Origin: a virus
Direction: 5' to 3' (one strand)
Length of the DNA: 39,712 nucleotides
Virus record (IMG/VR): IMGVR_UViG_3300045972_000620
Span: 1 to 39,712 of that record
Shown here: in pieces, positions 5,286 through 37,732 of the stretch
How the letters are laid out: every line of letters begins with the position of its first letter
Numbering within the stretch: position 1 is the stretch's first letter
The notes under the pieces: model-generated
What the model saw: the letters and a program-made list of their open reading frames with translations, nothing else
Told to the model about the DNA's origin: nothing
Databases searched by the model: none
Translations under genes and position numbers: made by a program

Positions 5286-5292
5286 GGGAGCC

Positions 5293-5316
5293 GAGGCTAC
5301 CCGCGCGCGTAGCCTC
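5293..5316. promoter_or_regulatory. Perfect 8-bp dyad just upstream of the terminase start
   Basis: GAGGCTAC and GTAGCCTC flank an alternating CCGCGCGC spacer, 8 bases before the leftward ATG of the terminase gene. It overlaps the predicted -10 area of the leftward late promoter, so it could be an operator or an mRNA hairpin. Similar CCCGCGCGCGC tracts recur in the gaps before V, FI and L. Confidence 0.45.
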
Positions 5317-5329
5317 TACCGAACAAAGC

Positions 5330-5356
5330 CGGGAGTAGCCCGCCCGCTTACACCCG
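5330..5356. promoter_or_regulatory. Bidirectional late-activator site between P and O
   Basis: On the plus strand the site reads CGGGAGTA-N11-TACACCCG, and on the minus strand CGGGTGTA-N11-TACTCCCG, so both strands fit the consensus CGGSWGTA-N11-YACWCCCG. The same 27-bp pattern recurs before V and FI, the other two positions of P2 late promoters. The centre (5343) is 58 bases from the P start and 101 from the O start. P2 Ogr binds a comparable dyad (TGT-N12-ACA) centred near -55. I infer that the zinc-finger protein at 27312..27593 binds here. Confidence 0.7.
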
Positions 5357-5443
5357 CAAGCCTTTGCCCCACGCAAACGGCCGCCCCAAACTGGCCCGGT
5401 CAAATCGCCAATCACCATCGATTAACCGCCGGAGCCAGACACC

Positions 5444-9951: not shown

Positions 9952-9975
9952 AAAACCCCGCTCCGGCGGGTTTTT
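9952..9975 (+). terminator. Intrinsic terminator after the SGNH hydrolase gene
   Basis: AACCC(C)GC pairs with GCGGGTT around a short loop, with one bulged base, and is followed by a run of T, 42 bases after the stop codon. An intrinsic terminator inside the late head operon would reduce transcription into L and X, unless the late transcript reads through or L has its own promoter. Confidence 0.75.
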
Positions 9976-10077
9976 CATGTCCGGGAGTATCCCTGCGCCA
10001 TACATCCGGCCCCGCTTCCCCGCGCGCGCATGGCATAGCACCATGGCCTGCATCAAAGCACCCGAGTCGATTCCTCC

Positions 10078-13381: not shown

Positions 13382-13829
13382 ACTCGCCGCCCTCGAATCC
13401 TTCGCCGCTGAACTCATCGCCGGGCTGCAGCCGGCCGAACGCAAGCAGCTCGCCACCGACATCGCCCGCCAGCTGCTGGCCAGCCAGCAAAAACGCATCG
13501 CCGCCCAACTCAACCCGGACGGCAGCGGCTTCATCCCGCGTAAAAGCCAGCTGCGCCAGCGCAAGGGCAAGCTGCGCGCCCAGATGTTCACCAAGCTGCG
13601 CACCGCCAAATACCTCAAGGCCAAAGGCACGGCCGACGAAGCCATCGTCGCTTTCACGGCCGACGTTTCCCGCATCGCCCGCGTGCACCAGTTCGGCCTG
13701 CACGACCGCGTCAATAAAAAAACCGGGCTCGAAGTCGTCTATCCCGAACGCCAGCTGCTCGGCTTCAGCGCCGCCGATATCGACCTCATCCGCGACCTGA
13801 CGGCGCTGCATCTCGGCAACCGGCTGTAA
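13374..13829 (+). CDS. S: Tail completion protein S (P2 gpS)
   Basis: The 151-residue product belongs to the phage virion-morphogenesis (gpS) family: a helical N-terminus with LLASQQKRIAAQLNPDGSGFIPRK, then KLRAQMFTKLRTAKYL and ARVHQFGLHDRVNKKTG. It connects the tail to the head. Its stop codon is part of the left half of the V late-activator dyad. Confidence 0.94.
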   Translation: MPELAALESFAAELIAGLQPAERKQLATDIARQLLASQQKRIAAQLNPDGSGFIPRKSQLRQRKGKLRAQMFTKLRTAKYLKAKGTADEAIVAFTADVSRIARVHQFGLHDRVNKKTGLEVVYPERQLLGFSAADIDLIRDLTALHLGNRL

Positions 13830-13847
13830 GCGGCCCGGTCACACCCG
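13821..13847 (+). promoter_or_regulatory. Late-activator site upstream of V
   Basis: CGGCTGTA-N11-CACACCCG is the same 27-bp pattern as at the P/O gap and before FI. Its centre (13834) is 57 bases before the V ATG. CATCAT at 13878..13883, 44 bases from the centre, is where a -10 element would fall if activation occurs at -55 as in P2. A CCCGCGCGCGC tract follows. The left half overlaps the end of S. Confidence 0.7.
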
Positions 13848-13890
13848 GCGCGCCACCCCGCGCGCGCAAAGCCCCGGCATCATCGGCGCC

Positions 13891-18571: not shown

Positions 18572-18598
18572 CGGCAGTAAGTCGCCGGGCTACACCCG
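18572..18598 (+). promoter_or_regulatory. Late-activator site upstream of FI
   Basis: CGGCAGTA-N11-TACACCCG fits the 27-bp pattern exactly. It is centred at 18585, 78 bases before the FI ATG. CACCAT at 18629..18634 is 44 bases from the centre, the same offset as the CATCAT in the V promoter. A CCCGCGCGCGC tract lies between. It corresponds to the P2 F promoter. Confidence 0.7.
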
Positions 18599-18662
18599 CC
18601 GGGCCGCGACACCCGCGCGCGCGGCCGGCACCATGGGCAGCATCACCTCACAGGAGCTGCCC

Positions 18663-19835
18663 ATGCCCACCGATTACCACCACGGCGTACGCGTCATCGA
18701 AGTTTCCGATGGTCGCCGGCCGATTCGCACCATCGCCACCGCCGTCATCGGCCTTGTCGCCATTGCCAGCGATGCCGATGCTGCCTTCTTCCCGCTCGAT
18801 ACGCCCGTCCTCGTCACCGATGTCCTCGCCGCCATCGGCAAGGCCGGCACCAACGGCACGCTGGCCATGGCCCTCGATGCCATCGCCGACCATGGTGGCG
18901 CCGTCACCGTCGTCGTCCGCGTCGCCGAAGGATCGGGCCCGGCCCATACCACCACCAATATCATCGGCTCCGTCGACGCCAACGGTAACTACAAGGGCTT
19001 GAAGGCGCTGCTCGCTGCCGAGTCCAAACTCGGCGTCAAGCCGCGCATCCTTGGCGTCCCCGGTCTCGACACCGCACCCGTCGCCACCGAACTGCTCGCC
19101 ATTGCCCAGAAGCTGCGTGCCTTCGCCTATGTCAGCGCCTACGGCTGTACGACCAAGGAAGCCGCGACCGCCTACCGTGAAAACCTCGGCGGCCGTGAAA
19201 TCATGGTCATCTGGCCCGACTTCATCGGCTGGGATACCGTCACCAGCACCAATATCACCTACCCGGCTGTCGCCCGGGCGCTCGCCCTGCGCGCCAAGAT
19301 CGATGAAGAAATCGGCTGGCACAAGACCATCTCCAACGTCGAGGTCAACGGCGTCACCGGCATCAGCAAGGATGTCTTCTGGGATCTGCAAGACCCGGCT
19401 ACCGATGCCGGCTACCTCAATGCCGCCGAGGTCACCACGCTGATCCGCCGCGACGGCTTCCGCTTCTGGGGTTCGCGCACCTGCACCGTCGATCCGCTCT
19501 TCGCCTTCGAGAACTACACGCGCACCGCCCAGGTGCTGGCCGACACCATCGCCGAAGCCCACATGTGGGCGGTCGACAAACCGATGAACCCGACGCTTAT
19601 CAAGGACATCATCGAAGGCGTCAATGCCAAGTTCCGCGAACTCAAGGCCCTTGGCTACATCATCGACGGCAACTGCTGGTACGACCCCACCGTCAATGAC
19701 GAAGTCACCCTCAAGGCCGGCAAGCTCTACCTCGATTACGACTACACGCCGGTCCCCCCGCTCGAAAACCTCTTGTTCCGCCAGCGCATCACCGATCGCT
19801 ACCTGGCCGACTTCGCCGCCCGCATTGGCGCCTGA
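18663..19835 (+). CDS. FI: Tail sheath protein (P2 gpFI)
   Basis: I use the ATG at 18663 ([14 protein letters not shown]), preceded by CAGGAG, rather than the upstream in-frame ATG at 18633, because family members begin right before DYHHG. The 390-residue product is close to the P2 sheath in length and has [31 protein letters not shown] and the C-terminal [12 protein letters not shown] and [21 protein letters not shown] blocks. It forms the contractile sheath. Confidence 0.97.
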
Positions 19836-25838: not shown

Positions 25839-26018
25839 ATGATCAATTTAGATGCAGCCCGGGAGATATCGAACAACCTGGCAGGAACCCTCGACCTGCT
25901 CGCCAACCTGCATGCCTCCGTCGCGATGCATGACCGGGAATCGAAACCACTGGCTTCCACATTCGCCATGCTCCATGAGCGCGCCGTTCTGCTGGAAAGG
26001 ATATTGTCCGGCGACTAG
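25839..26018 (+). CDS. Small helical protein, unknown function
   Basis: The 59-residue frame, MINLDAAREISNNLAGTLDLLANLHASVAMHDRES..., is predicted all-helical and ends in LHERAVLLERILSGD. No good ribosome-binding site precedes the ATG (ACAAAAAATAC). Its stop TAG lies in a CTAG that also supplies the stop of the converging repressor gene. A small regulator is possible. I do not recognise the family. Confidence 0.5.
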   Translation: MINLDAAREISNNLAGTLDLLANLHASVAMHDRESKPLASTFAMLHERAVLLERILSGD

Positions 26019-26374
26019 CGCCGCGCCAGGCGCCTCGCCAGCTGCTCGACCAGCGCAGCGTCTTGTTCAGTCAGGTCAAGGTTCCTCAATTCGTCGGCAA
26101 GCTGTTCGGCCGCACAGTACGGGACCCTGTCCTGCATGACGCAGGGCGTATTGGAGCGCACGCCGCAAACGATGTACTGCACATCGGCCCCTTCCCGATG
26201 GAAATAAAAAAGCTCGTTGGCCTTGGGCGATGAAACGCCTGATTCATAGTTTTTTATCGTCCGGTCAGACGTGAATATTTTCGCCGCCAAGGTCGCTTGG
26301 GAAAGATCGAGACGAACCCTTTCGTGCTTGAACCGTTGACCGATAGTGAAAATATTTTCCTCTTGTGTTGACAT
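26015..26374 (-). CDS. XRE-type helix-turn-helix repressor
   Basis: I take the ATG at 26374 (MSTQEENIFTIGQ), with GGGGAAAG upstream; a TTG earlier is less likely. In the 119-residue product, residues 9-65 form an XRE HTH (FKHERVRLDLSQATLAAKIFTSDRTIKNYESGVSSPKANEL). The C-terminal part has no protease motif, so it is not a LexA-type self-cleaving repressor. It diverges from the RHH gene across operator-like DNA, the usual phage C / cox arrangement, so it is the best candidate for the prophage repressor. Confidence 0.85.
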   Translation of the reverse strand: MSTQEENIFTIGQRFKHERVRLDLSQATLAAKIFTSDRTIKNYESGVSSPKANELFYFHREGADVQYIVCGVRSNTPCVMQDRVPYCAAEQLADELRNLDLTEQDAALVEQLARRLARR

Positions 26375-26390
26375 AGGCAATTTCTTTCCC

Positions 26391-26405
26391 CACAATGCAA
26401 TTGTG
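26391..26405. promoter_or_regulatory. Operator-like dyad between the divergent regulators
   Basis: CACAAT-GCA-ATTGTG is a perfect 6-bp dyad. A further CAATTGT lies at about 26421..26427 near the start of the RHH gene. Both are in the 57-base gap between the repressor and the rightward regulator, so repressor binding would control both promoters. Confidence 0.6.
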
Positions 26406-26733: not shown

Positions 26734-27315
26734 ATGGTCATGCAGCGCGCAACGCACCCCAGCCCGATAGCCATCATCAGCGACCACATCGAAGCCTGGC
26801 GCCGGGATAACCGCTGGTCGCGCGAAACTGTCGCCGACATGATCGTCCAGGCCCATATCCGCATCGGCGCCCAGTCCTACACCGGCATTGCCTTCGAGCC
26901 GCCGACCATGGATACCTTCGAGCGCATGCGCGTCAATGCCGACCGCGTTTTCCGCTGGCTCGACGACCACACCAAGGACCGCAACCTGCTCACGGCCAAC
27001 CTGCTTTGGTCAGTCATCGCCGCCCTGCCTACCGACCGCCGCATCCTGCTCGTCAATGACCTCATGCACCCGCTCGGCCTGCGCGTTTCGGCCGTTCTCG
27101 ATGACGACACCGAGCCGACGGCCGACGAGATCGCCGAAGGCTTCCGCCACATTGTCACGCACACCGCCGAAGCCACCATCGCCGCCGCCCAGCTGCTCGA
27201 CGGCATCGACCCCGGCGAGGCCGAGCACGCCGAAGCCAAGCTCAGCCTGGCCAGCACCGCCATCAAGCGCATGCGCAATATGCTCACCCGGGTCCTCAAG
27301 CGGAGTAAATCATGA
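26734..27315 (+). CDS. YdaT-like phage regulator/toxin family protein
   Basis: The 193-residue product shows the arrangement AIISDHIEAWRRDNRWSRETVADMIVQAHIRIG...FEPPTMDTFERMRVNADRVFRWLDD, then DRRILLVNDLMHPLGL. I recognise this as the YdaT type, first named a toxin and later proposed to act like the phage lambda CII regulator. GGGAG lies before the ATG at 26734; a second ATG follows two codons later. It is coupled to the ogr-like gene by a four-base overlap, so it belongs to the regulatory operon. Confidence 0.7.
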   Translation: MVMQRATHPSPIAIISDHIEAWRRDNRWSRETVADMIVQAHIRIGAQSYTGIAFEPPTMDTFERMRVNADRVFRWLDDHTKDRNLLTANLLWSVIAALPTDRRILLVNDLMHPLGLRVSAVLDDDTEPTADEIAEGFRHIVTHTAEATIAAAQLLDGIDPGEAEHAEAKLSLASTAIKRMRNMLTRVLKRSKS

Positions 27316-27593
27316 GACTCGACTGCCCGCACTGCGGCCACGAAGCCACGATCCGGACCAGCAAGGCCATCACTGAAATAACCCGCGAAGCCAAGGTTCA
27401 GTGCAATAACCCGGACTGCTCGCACAGCTGGATCACGCTGATCAGCGCCGTGCGCACCATTGCCCCGTCGATGACCCCCAACCCCAGGGTCTACATCCCC
27501 CTCTCTCCGCGCTCACCGGCAGCCGATAAGCCGGGCGGAAACCAGATGGAACTCGGCATGGAACACCCGCCACCCCGCTTTGCCTCCGGCTAA
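27312..27593 (+). CDS. ogr: Ogr/Delta-type zinc-finger late transcription activator
   Basis: The 93-residue product has the conserved finger LDCPHCGHEATIRTSKAITEITREAKVQCNNPDCSHSW: Cys pairs CPHC and CNNPDC bind one zinc, as in P2 Ogr and P4 Delta. This family recruits RNA polymerase to late promoters through the alpha subunit. In P2 ogr lies at the right end after D. Here it sits in the early operon behind the regulators. Its probable targets are the three 27-bp dyads at 5330, 13821 and 18572. Confidence 0.92.
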   Translation: MRLDCPHCGHEATIRTSKAITEITREAKVQCNNPDCSHSWITLISAVRTIAPSMTPNPRVYIPLSPRSPAADKPGGNQMELGMEHPPPRFASG

Positions 27594-35562: not shown

Positions 35563-35785
35563 TTGGTTACCAGGATCGTTCTGCGACAACGTATCTCTGT
35601 GCACTACCGGTATGAATTACATCGAAGGCCTCGACTGGGAGCGCGAATTCATGATCGATGACTTGTATATCGGATCGATTGATGCGCCGGATTTTTCACC
35701 GGCAGGCTCATGCAAGCGTTACCTGGATTTCATGGGGCTATGCCTTGAGCAGTCAATCCTCAAGCGCAGGAGGTTGGTGCCATGA
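35555..35785 (+). CDS. Small unknown protein
   Basis: From the ATG at 35555, with GGGGGAA just upstream (a better start than the earlier in-frame codon), the 76-residue product reads MADWLPGSFCDNVSLCTTGMNYIEGLDWEREFMIDDLYIG.... It overlaps the end of the methyltransferase gene by eight bases and the start of the ASCH gene by four. The DNA is less GC-rich than its neighbours. No domain recognised. Confidence 0.65.
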   Translation: MADWLPGSFCDNVSLCTTGMNYIEGLDWEREFMIDDLYIGSIDAPDFSPAGSCKRYLDFMGLCLEQSILKRRRLVP

Positions 35786-36168
35786 TTGCCCTATCAATTC
35801 GCCAGCCCTGGGCCTGGCTCATCCTTCACGCCGGCAAGGACATCGAAAACCGCGACTGGAAAACCCCCTATCGCGGCCGCTGCCTGATCCATGCCTCGAA
35901 ATCCGGTACCAAGCTGGACTACGAGGACGCCATCGACTTCATGGTCGAGCGTGGTCTTTCCCGTCTTGATTACGACCTTCCCGCACTGGAGCACGTCGAA
36001 AAAGGCGGCATCGTTGGCATGGTCGATATCGTCGGCTGCACAGACACCTCGGACTCCCCCTGGTTCGTCGGCGACTTCGGCTTCGTCATACGCAACCCAA
36101 AGCCCCTGCCCTTCACCCCCTACAAAGGCCGCCTCGGCTTTTTCAACGTACCGGAGATCAAGCCATGA
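35782..36168 (+). CDS. ASCH (PUA-like) domain protein
   Basis: The 128-residue product fits the ASCH pattern: IALSIRQPWAWLILHAGKDIENRDWKTPYRGRCLIHASKSG, then GGIVGMVDIVGCT and the end GRLGFFNVPEI. ASCH proteins have a PUA-like fold that binds RNA or modified nucleic-acid bases. Its place between a C5 methyltransferase and a DndC-like protein hints that it recognises modified DNA or RNA. That is inference. Confidence 0.88.
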   Translation: MIALSIRQPWAWLILHAGKDIENRDWKTPYRGRCLIHASKSGTKLDYEDAIDFMVERGLSRLDYDLPALEHVEKGGIVGMVDIVGCTDTSDSPWFVGDFGFVIRNPKPLPFTPYKGRLGFFNVPEIKP

Positions 36169-36512: not shown

Positions 36513-37732
36513 CCGCCCGCGACCTCTCACTGTTCGAAGCCGGCGCCCGTCTGCAAATGACGGAATCCATCGAACTGACTATCCAGAGCCTGCAAGCCTA
36601 TGGAGCGGCTCACGATCATTGGGTAATTGCCTGGTCGGGTGGCAAGGACAGCACCGCCACGCTGACGCTGATCATATGGCTCATCACCTCCGGAAAAATC
36701 AAGGGCCCGAAGCGCCTAACCGTTCTCTATGCCGATACCCGGCAGGAACTTCCGCCGTTGGCTATCGCTGCCGAGGCGATCATGGACGAGCTGGCCGAGC
36801 GTGGCATTGAATTCAGAGTCGTTCGCGCTCCGCTCGATAAGCGCTTCCTGGTCTATATCCTTGGCCGTGGTGTTCCGCCGCCGAACAACAACACGCTGCG
36901 CTGGTGTACGCGGCAGATCAAGGTCGATCCGATGGCCGCCGCCATTGCCGAAACACTAGGCGATGGAACAGCACTGACCATCACCGGGGTACGCCAGGGC
37001 GAGAGCGCCATCCGCGACCGGCGTATCGAGATGAGCTGCGGCAAGGACGGCGCCGAGTGCGGCCAGGGTTGGTATCAGCAAGTTCTCCCCGAAGCCAAGA
37101 GCGTACGCGGACGTATTGCCACGCTGGCCCCGCTACTCCATTGGCGTGTCTGTCACATCTGGGAATGGTTGCGTCACTGGGCTCCCAAGGAAGAATTTGG
37201 CGGCTGGCCAACCGAGATGATTGCCGACGCCTATGGCGGCGATGAGGCCGAGGAAATAAACGCCCGTACTGGCTGTGTCGCGTGCCCGCTTGCGCAAGAA
37301 GAAAAGGCTCTCGAAAACATTCTTACGATGCCTCGATGGTCGCACCTGGCACCGCTGCGCGACCTAAAGCCTCTATATCGCTGGCTTCGCGAGCCATCCC
37401 AACGCCTTCGCAAGGCTGGCGTAGAACGATTGAAGAGTGGATCGATCGGAAAGAATCCCCAACGCATGGGTCCTTTAACGATTGAAGCCCGCCTTGAAGC
37501 GCTCGACAAGATTCTCGACATCCAGCAGAGCATCAATTCAGAGGACCAACGCGGTCAGCGCTTCGAGTTGATCAACACCGAAGAGGAAACCCGCATCCGC
37601 CAGCTTATAGCCGGAGAAACATGGCCTGATGGATGGGACGGAGACGAGCCACACGCTGACCAATGGCTACCGGTAACCATCTACGGCAATGGCGCCGAGC
37701 AGCATGATCTGTTTGGCCTAGAGGAAGCATGA
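36509..37732 (+). CDS. PAPS-reductase-family / DndC-like ATP pyrophosphatase
   Basis: The true start is the ATG at 36509 (MTARDLSLFEAGAR), overlapping the previous stop. The 407-residue product has the PP-loop SGGKDST (43-49), then DTRQELPP, LRWCTRQIKVDP (Cys132) and GVRQGESAIRDRR. Cys176, Cys183, and a GCVAC pair (Cys255, Cys258) could bind an iron-sulfur cluster. The order resembles DndC, which activates sulfur transfer to the DNA backbone. DndA, B, D and E are not in the window. It could serve sulfur modification with host help, or another adenylate-forming reaction. Confidence 0.82.
   Translation: MTARDLSLFEAGARLQMTESIELTIQSLQAYGAAHDHWVIAWSGGKDSTATLTLIIWLITSGKIKGPKRLTVLYADTRQELPPLAIAAEAIMDELAERGIEFRVVRAPLDKRFLVYILGRGVPPPNNNTLRWCTRQIKVDPMAAAIAETLGDGTALTITGVRQGESAIRDRRIEMSCGKDGAECGQGWYQQVLPEAKSVRGRIATLAPLLHWRVCHIWEWLRHWAPKEEFGGWPTEMIADAYGGDEAEEINARTGCVACPLAQEEKALENILTMPRWSHLAPLRDLKPLYRWLREPSQRLRKAGVERLKSGSIGKNPQRMGPLTIEARLEALDKILDIQQSINSEDQRGQRFELINTEEETRIRQLIAGETWPDGWDGDEPHADQWLPVTIYGNGAEQHDLFGLEEA

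Follow-up and report, generated by a model that had tools for sequence, protein, structure and literature searches.

Late-gene dyads and their -10 hexamers

The window analysed here, by which we mean the whole 39,712-nucleotide stretch of viral DNA, carries the late genes of a P2-like phage and a gene for an Ogr/Delta-like zinc-finger protein. At its left end, beyond Q, it encodes a D12-class N6-adenine DNA methyltransferase (PF02086; 1563-2330, minus strand), and on the plus strand an ASCH-domain protein (35782-36168) is followed by a PAPS-reductase-like protein (36554-37732). A pattern scan of the window found exact matches to a 27-bp dyad in the P/O (5330-5356), V (13821-13847, plus strand) and FI (18572-18598, plus strand) gaps, in agreement with a preliminary description of this DNA. 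A fourth copy with one mismatch, the only other strong one in the window, lies at 9982-10008 (plus strand) upstream of the head gene L. The three sites listed originally thus stand, but not as a complete set, since there are four dyads and five predicted promoters.

Because the pattern was derived from the sites themselves, it was tested with a matrix built on other phages, using 63 N13 sites (TGT-N13-ACA) as the training set with the window excluded and 30 Markov-shuffled windows as the null. By the dyad alone, the four places ranked first with scores of 19.9-23.9, compared with a best score of 15.6 in the shuffled windows and 11.0 at the next-best real place in the window (28561, inside the primase gene). 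When the hexamer described below was included in the matrix, the top five places in the window were V (34.7), FI (30.9), L (30.5), O (30.3) and P (27.6), against a best score of 15.2 in the 30 shuffled windows, so that a matrix from relatives finds exactly these five promoters. The left half-site is AGT rather than TGT at O, L and FI, which counts against reading these dyads as Ogr sites.

The P/O copy had been described as bidirectional, with one site for two divergent operons (O on the plus strand and P on the minus strand), and the evidence bears this out. The dyad fits the other strand as well, at one mismatch, with matrix scores of 21.0 (plus) and 21.1 (minus), and by the dyad-plus-hexamer matrix it is the only one of the four with a -10 on both sides, the reverse strands at L, V and FI having none. 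A shared bidirectional P/O site is canonical for P2 and 186: the P2 record has a single activator site for O and P at this place, as has the 186 record with its single B site for both promoters, and relatives carry the dyad there too. In Smp131, similarly, one site has been named in both directions for P′ and O′, although the sequences named by the authors are N12-like and the gene order is rearranged (PMC3931495). An inverted repeat on the P side, GAGGCTAC-N8-GTAGCCTC at 5289-5312, was considered as a further site and rejected, as its right arm is missing in the close relative G015.

A -10 hexamer is found at an identical offset from the dyad in all five promoters. The two hexamers noted in the preliminary description, CATCAT at V (13878-13883, plus strand) and CACCAT at FI (18629-18634, plus strand), are present, and the same offset holds three that it did not mention, namely CAAACT at O (5387-5392, plus strand), TAGCCT at P (5294-5299, minus strand) and CACCAT at L (10039-10044, plus strand). 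When the five window promoters are aligned on the dyad, A (offset 32) and T (offset 36) are invariant downstream of the 27-mer, and not one of 20,000 randomly drawn sets of five segments from the window had that many invariant columns within nine. Across the late promoters of the phages compared, offset 32 is A in 79 of 82 and offset 36 is T in 78 of 82; these 82 were picked without reference to the hexamer, with a score cut and a few exclusions set by eye, and sites from related phages are not mutually independent. TAGCCT stands at the same offset of the P promoter in P2, 186, KS5 and AP3, and CAAACT or GAAACT at that of the O promoter in P2 and 186.

The O and P starts in the P2 record (3127 and 3016) fall at offset 43; with the hexamer taken as -12 to -7, this position is +1. 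By this measure, transcription would start near 5399 (O), 5287 on the minus strand (P), 10051 (L), 13890 (V) and 18641 (FI). The predicted starts lie about 55-56 bases from the dyad centre, as do the P2 starts, consistent with the activation distance of about 55 bases expected beforehand. The predicted V start is one base before the V start codon (13891) and that of P two bases before its start codon (5285). A leaderless V message is canonical, the V start in the P2 record being the first base of the V gene, and since an ATG is found at offset 43 or 44 in 20/21 V promoters and 10/18 P promoters, many of these phages may have a near-leaderless P message as well. For FI, an ATG at 18633 was rejected as the start codon: it overlaps the -10, while the codon at 18663 is preceded by a Shine-Dalgarno sequence (AGGAG) and matches the family.

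Alternating CG tracts in the promoter spacers

The window has only four copies of the alternating (CG)4 tract CGCGCGCG, and every one of them separates a dyad from its -10. One is on the P side at P/O (5302-5309, inside the inverted repeat mentioned above), and the others are in the promoters of L (10021-10028), V (13859-13866) and FI, where the tract is extended to (CG)5 (18614-18623). The related phages G013 and G015 also have exactly four (CG)4 tracts each and Smp131 has three, all of them at late promoters. The tract also turns up in P2-like phages that are only distantly related and have GC-rich hosts. In phages of high GC content, a tract of (CG)3 or longer was present in all promoters of FI (15/15) and L (6/6), in most of those of P (12/13) and V (15/18) and in 4/12 of those of O; where the phage has 58% GC or less, 1 promoter in 18 had such a tract. 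The O promoters instead tend to have TTG at -35, in 15 of 17 cases compared with none of the 65 others, and in the window this trinucleotide is at 5364-5366. TTG and (CG)4 tend towards mutual exclusion (Fisher p = 1.4e-5, uncorrected for relatedness).

Two explanations of the tract were weighed. Tentatively, an alternating (CG)3-6 tract could be a dedicated spacer element at the P, V, FI and L promoters, which lack a -35, in P2-like phages of GC-rich hosts, with O using TTG at -35; its stiffness, its cost of melting or the geometry of the helix would let the tract silence these promoters when the activator is absent. The varying position of the tract would argue for a DNA property rather than a fixed contact. 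The other explanation, which applies to the tract and not to the dyads, is that (CG)4 has no role and simply arises where non-coding DNA is rich in GC. The absence of tracts from nearly all promoters of phages at 58% GC or less speaks for this, as do the Burkholderia phages, in which many (CG)4 tracts occur elsewhere too. However, it does not readily account for the window, G013 and G015, where every one of the four tracts is at a late promoter, nor for the counts: (CG)4 was found in 46 of 64 spacers, compared with 0.7 expected from same-base shuffles and 10.1 under a first-order model, and at 42 of 86 late gene starts compared with 18 of 345 other starts. We regard a by-product without a role as rather unlikely.

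Phages added afterwards lend the CG-tract pattern partial support. Some late promoters bear a tract in FLC5, Alfacinha1, Milagro, G385 and G182; the sole tract in G244 is a (CG)3 at V, and prophages of low GC content are almost without tracts. In G014, a further (CG)4 tract lies beside a dyad-like sequence around 2238, outside the four late gaps.

Two more specific roles were rejected. A fixed substitute for a -35 does not fit, as the centre of the tract ranges from offset 14.5 to 25.5. The window encodes a C-5 cytosine DNA methyltransferase (PF00145; 33778-35562, plus strand), and methylation of the tract by such a phage enzyme was also considered; the presence of PF00145 does not track the tract, which is found without a PF00145 match in Smp131, KS5, AP3, KS14 and FLC5, while the reverse holds for LPM4 and a Halomonas phage, which match PF00145 but lack (CG)4. 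A literature search returned no paper on a CG tract, whether at the late promoters of phages or within a Z-DNA spacer. If functional, the tract would add to a classic activator-dependent promoter an element of which the literature searched has no record.

The insert between M and L

The fourth dyad follows an insertion. Between M and L, the window carries a gene for a GDSL/SGNH hydrolase (PF13472; 8252-9910, plus strand), at whose end lies a terminator-like hairpin with a T run (9957-9975, plus strand), and the L dyad comes next; the same order is found in the M-L gap of Azonexus. The gap measures 1933 bp in the window, compared with 104-430 bp in phages without an insert, and in none of the 16 phages of the latter kind was an L dyad found. 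A dyad upstream of L is present in the window, G013, G015 and Azonexus, where the inserts are 1.9-3.2 kb, and also in G012 and G014. G001 is an exception that counts against the association, having a 1.7-kb M-L insert and no L dyad. In sequence, most of the inserts that were compared are unrelated to one another.

We infer that the L promoter is needed owing to the insert and its terminator: placed just behind the hairpin, it would restore transcription of L and the lysis genes. This suggests how a phage may take cargo into an essential operon without silencing the genes downstream, by means of a new late promoter behind the insert.

The activator and the place of the dyads among P2-like systems

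The protein encoded at 27312-27593 (plus strand), already described as Ogr-like, matches PF04606 with 53.5 bits and has the motif CX2CX22CX4C; the alignment that gives this motif is readable for most phages, those of Fels2, Acica and LPM4 being misparsed. In overall layout, the window resembles the P2 promoters PO, PP, PV and PF, whose sites are TGT-N12-ACA, and the B-dependent promoters of 186: the positions, the single O/P site, the distance of about 55 bases to the start, a V transcript that begins at its own start codon and the Ogr-type zinc finger are alike. It differs in its spacing, N13 as against N12, in half-sites that are rich in GC (CGGGTGTA), in the fifth promoter, that of L, and in the (CG)4 tract that the spacers of P, L, V and FI contain.

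The dyad recurs at the P/O, V and FI gaps of P2-like phages, where the preliminary description had proposed to look for it in related prophages. Blind scans used the dyad plus the -10 at a fixed distance as the query (18 specified bases). In IMG/VR this returned nine stretches: seven correspond to an S/V or G/FI gap in P2-like phages, and two are without a P2 gene. The same query gave 13 matches in 84,980 genomes, three of them S/V or G/FI gaps, two in Azonexus sp. R2A61 and one in a betaproteobacterial MAG; these genome matches suggest a Rhodocyclales-like host.

From the sequence comparisons together, we consider it highly probable (about 0.92) that the four dyads are binding sites of the Ogr-like activator, giving five late promoters. 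The promoters have a weak -10 hexamer and all but O lack a -35; the activator, binding about 56 bases before the start, would bring the host sigma-70 RNA polymerase to them. Two divergent operons would share the P/O dyad, and the L, V and FI dyads would serve one operon each. A palindrome by itself names no protein, and an HTH protein is encoded nearby (26015-26395), so the dyads might instead be operators of another regulator such as this one, with the Ogr-like protein binding elsewhere. We think this very improbable, however, since the position, the -10 distance, the shared P/O layout and the half-sites correspond to the annotated activator sites of P2 and 186. A role of the dyads at the RNA level, as terminator hairpins or sites of processing at the ends of the upstream operons, would suit their place at operon boundaries and their capacity to form stems of about eight pairs, but is hardly credible, since no T run follows them, a separate terminator-like hairpin already precedes the dyad at L, and the fixed-offset -10 and the relation to the P2 start sites would be left unexplained.

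With the dyads read as activator sites, the preliminary description was right in outline, and it is well supported that the system belongs to a well-known kind and is largely canonical; what is added here is a fourth dyad, a full map of the promoters, the link between insert and extra promoter, and the CG tract. The result is a map of five promoters, open to test, in a P2-like phage whose lineage is probably Rhodocyclales-like, together with a general grammar of late promoters (dyad, spacer, -10, start codon) for use in annotating P2-like prophages.

The preliminary description had further contrasted spacing and flanks with the P2 site and suggested a variant specificity of the Ogr-like protein. 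The difference in spacing stands, the window dyads being TGT-N13-ACA and thus outside the N12 subclass of P2, but that in the flank does not, as the P2 FI site also has a GG/CC flank (GGTTGT...CCAACC). N13 is also found in KS5, AP3, KS14, Dobby, Acica and LPM4, and among the phages compared it occurs in every other one with a clear site besides P2, 186, Fels2 and the Halomonas phage. Because N13 recurs in other phages and the flank is shared with P2 FI, any variant specificity would be a clade-level feature at most. The late promoters of phiRSA1 and phiRSY1 have been reported as TGTTGT-N13-ACAACA (PMC5694545); they resemble those of the window in their N13 spacing, their location in non-coding regions upstream of late operons and the presence of an Ogr homologue, and differ in their outer bases, which are TGT rather than CGG, and the parts of that report consulted make no mention of a CG tract or an L promoter. 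N12, among the phages compared, is confined to P2, 186 and Fels2. Halomonas phage vB_HboP_4908 (PQ368759.1) has N14 late dyads at P/O, V and FI and represents a third spacing class; its P/O dyad is nearly perfectly symmetric.
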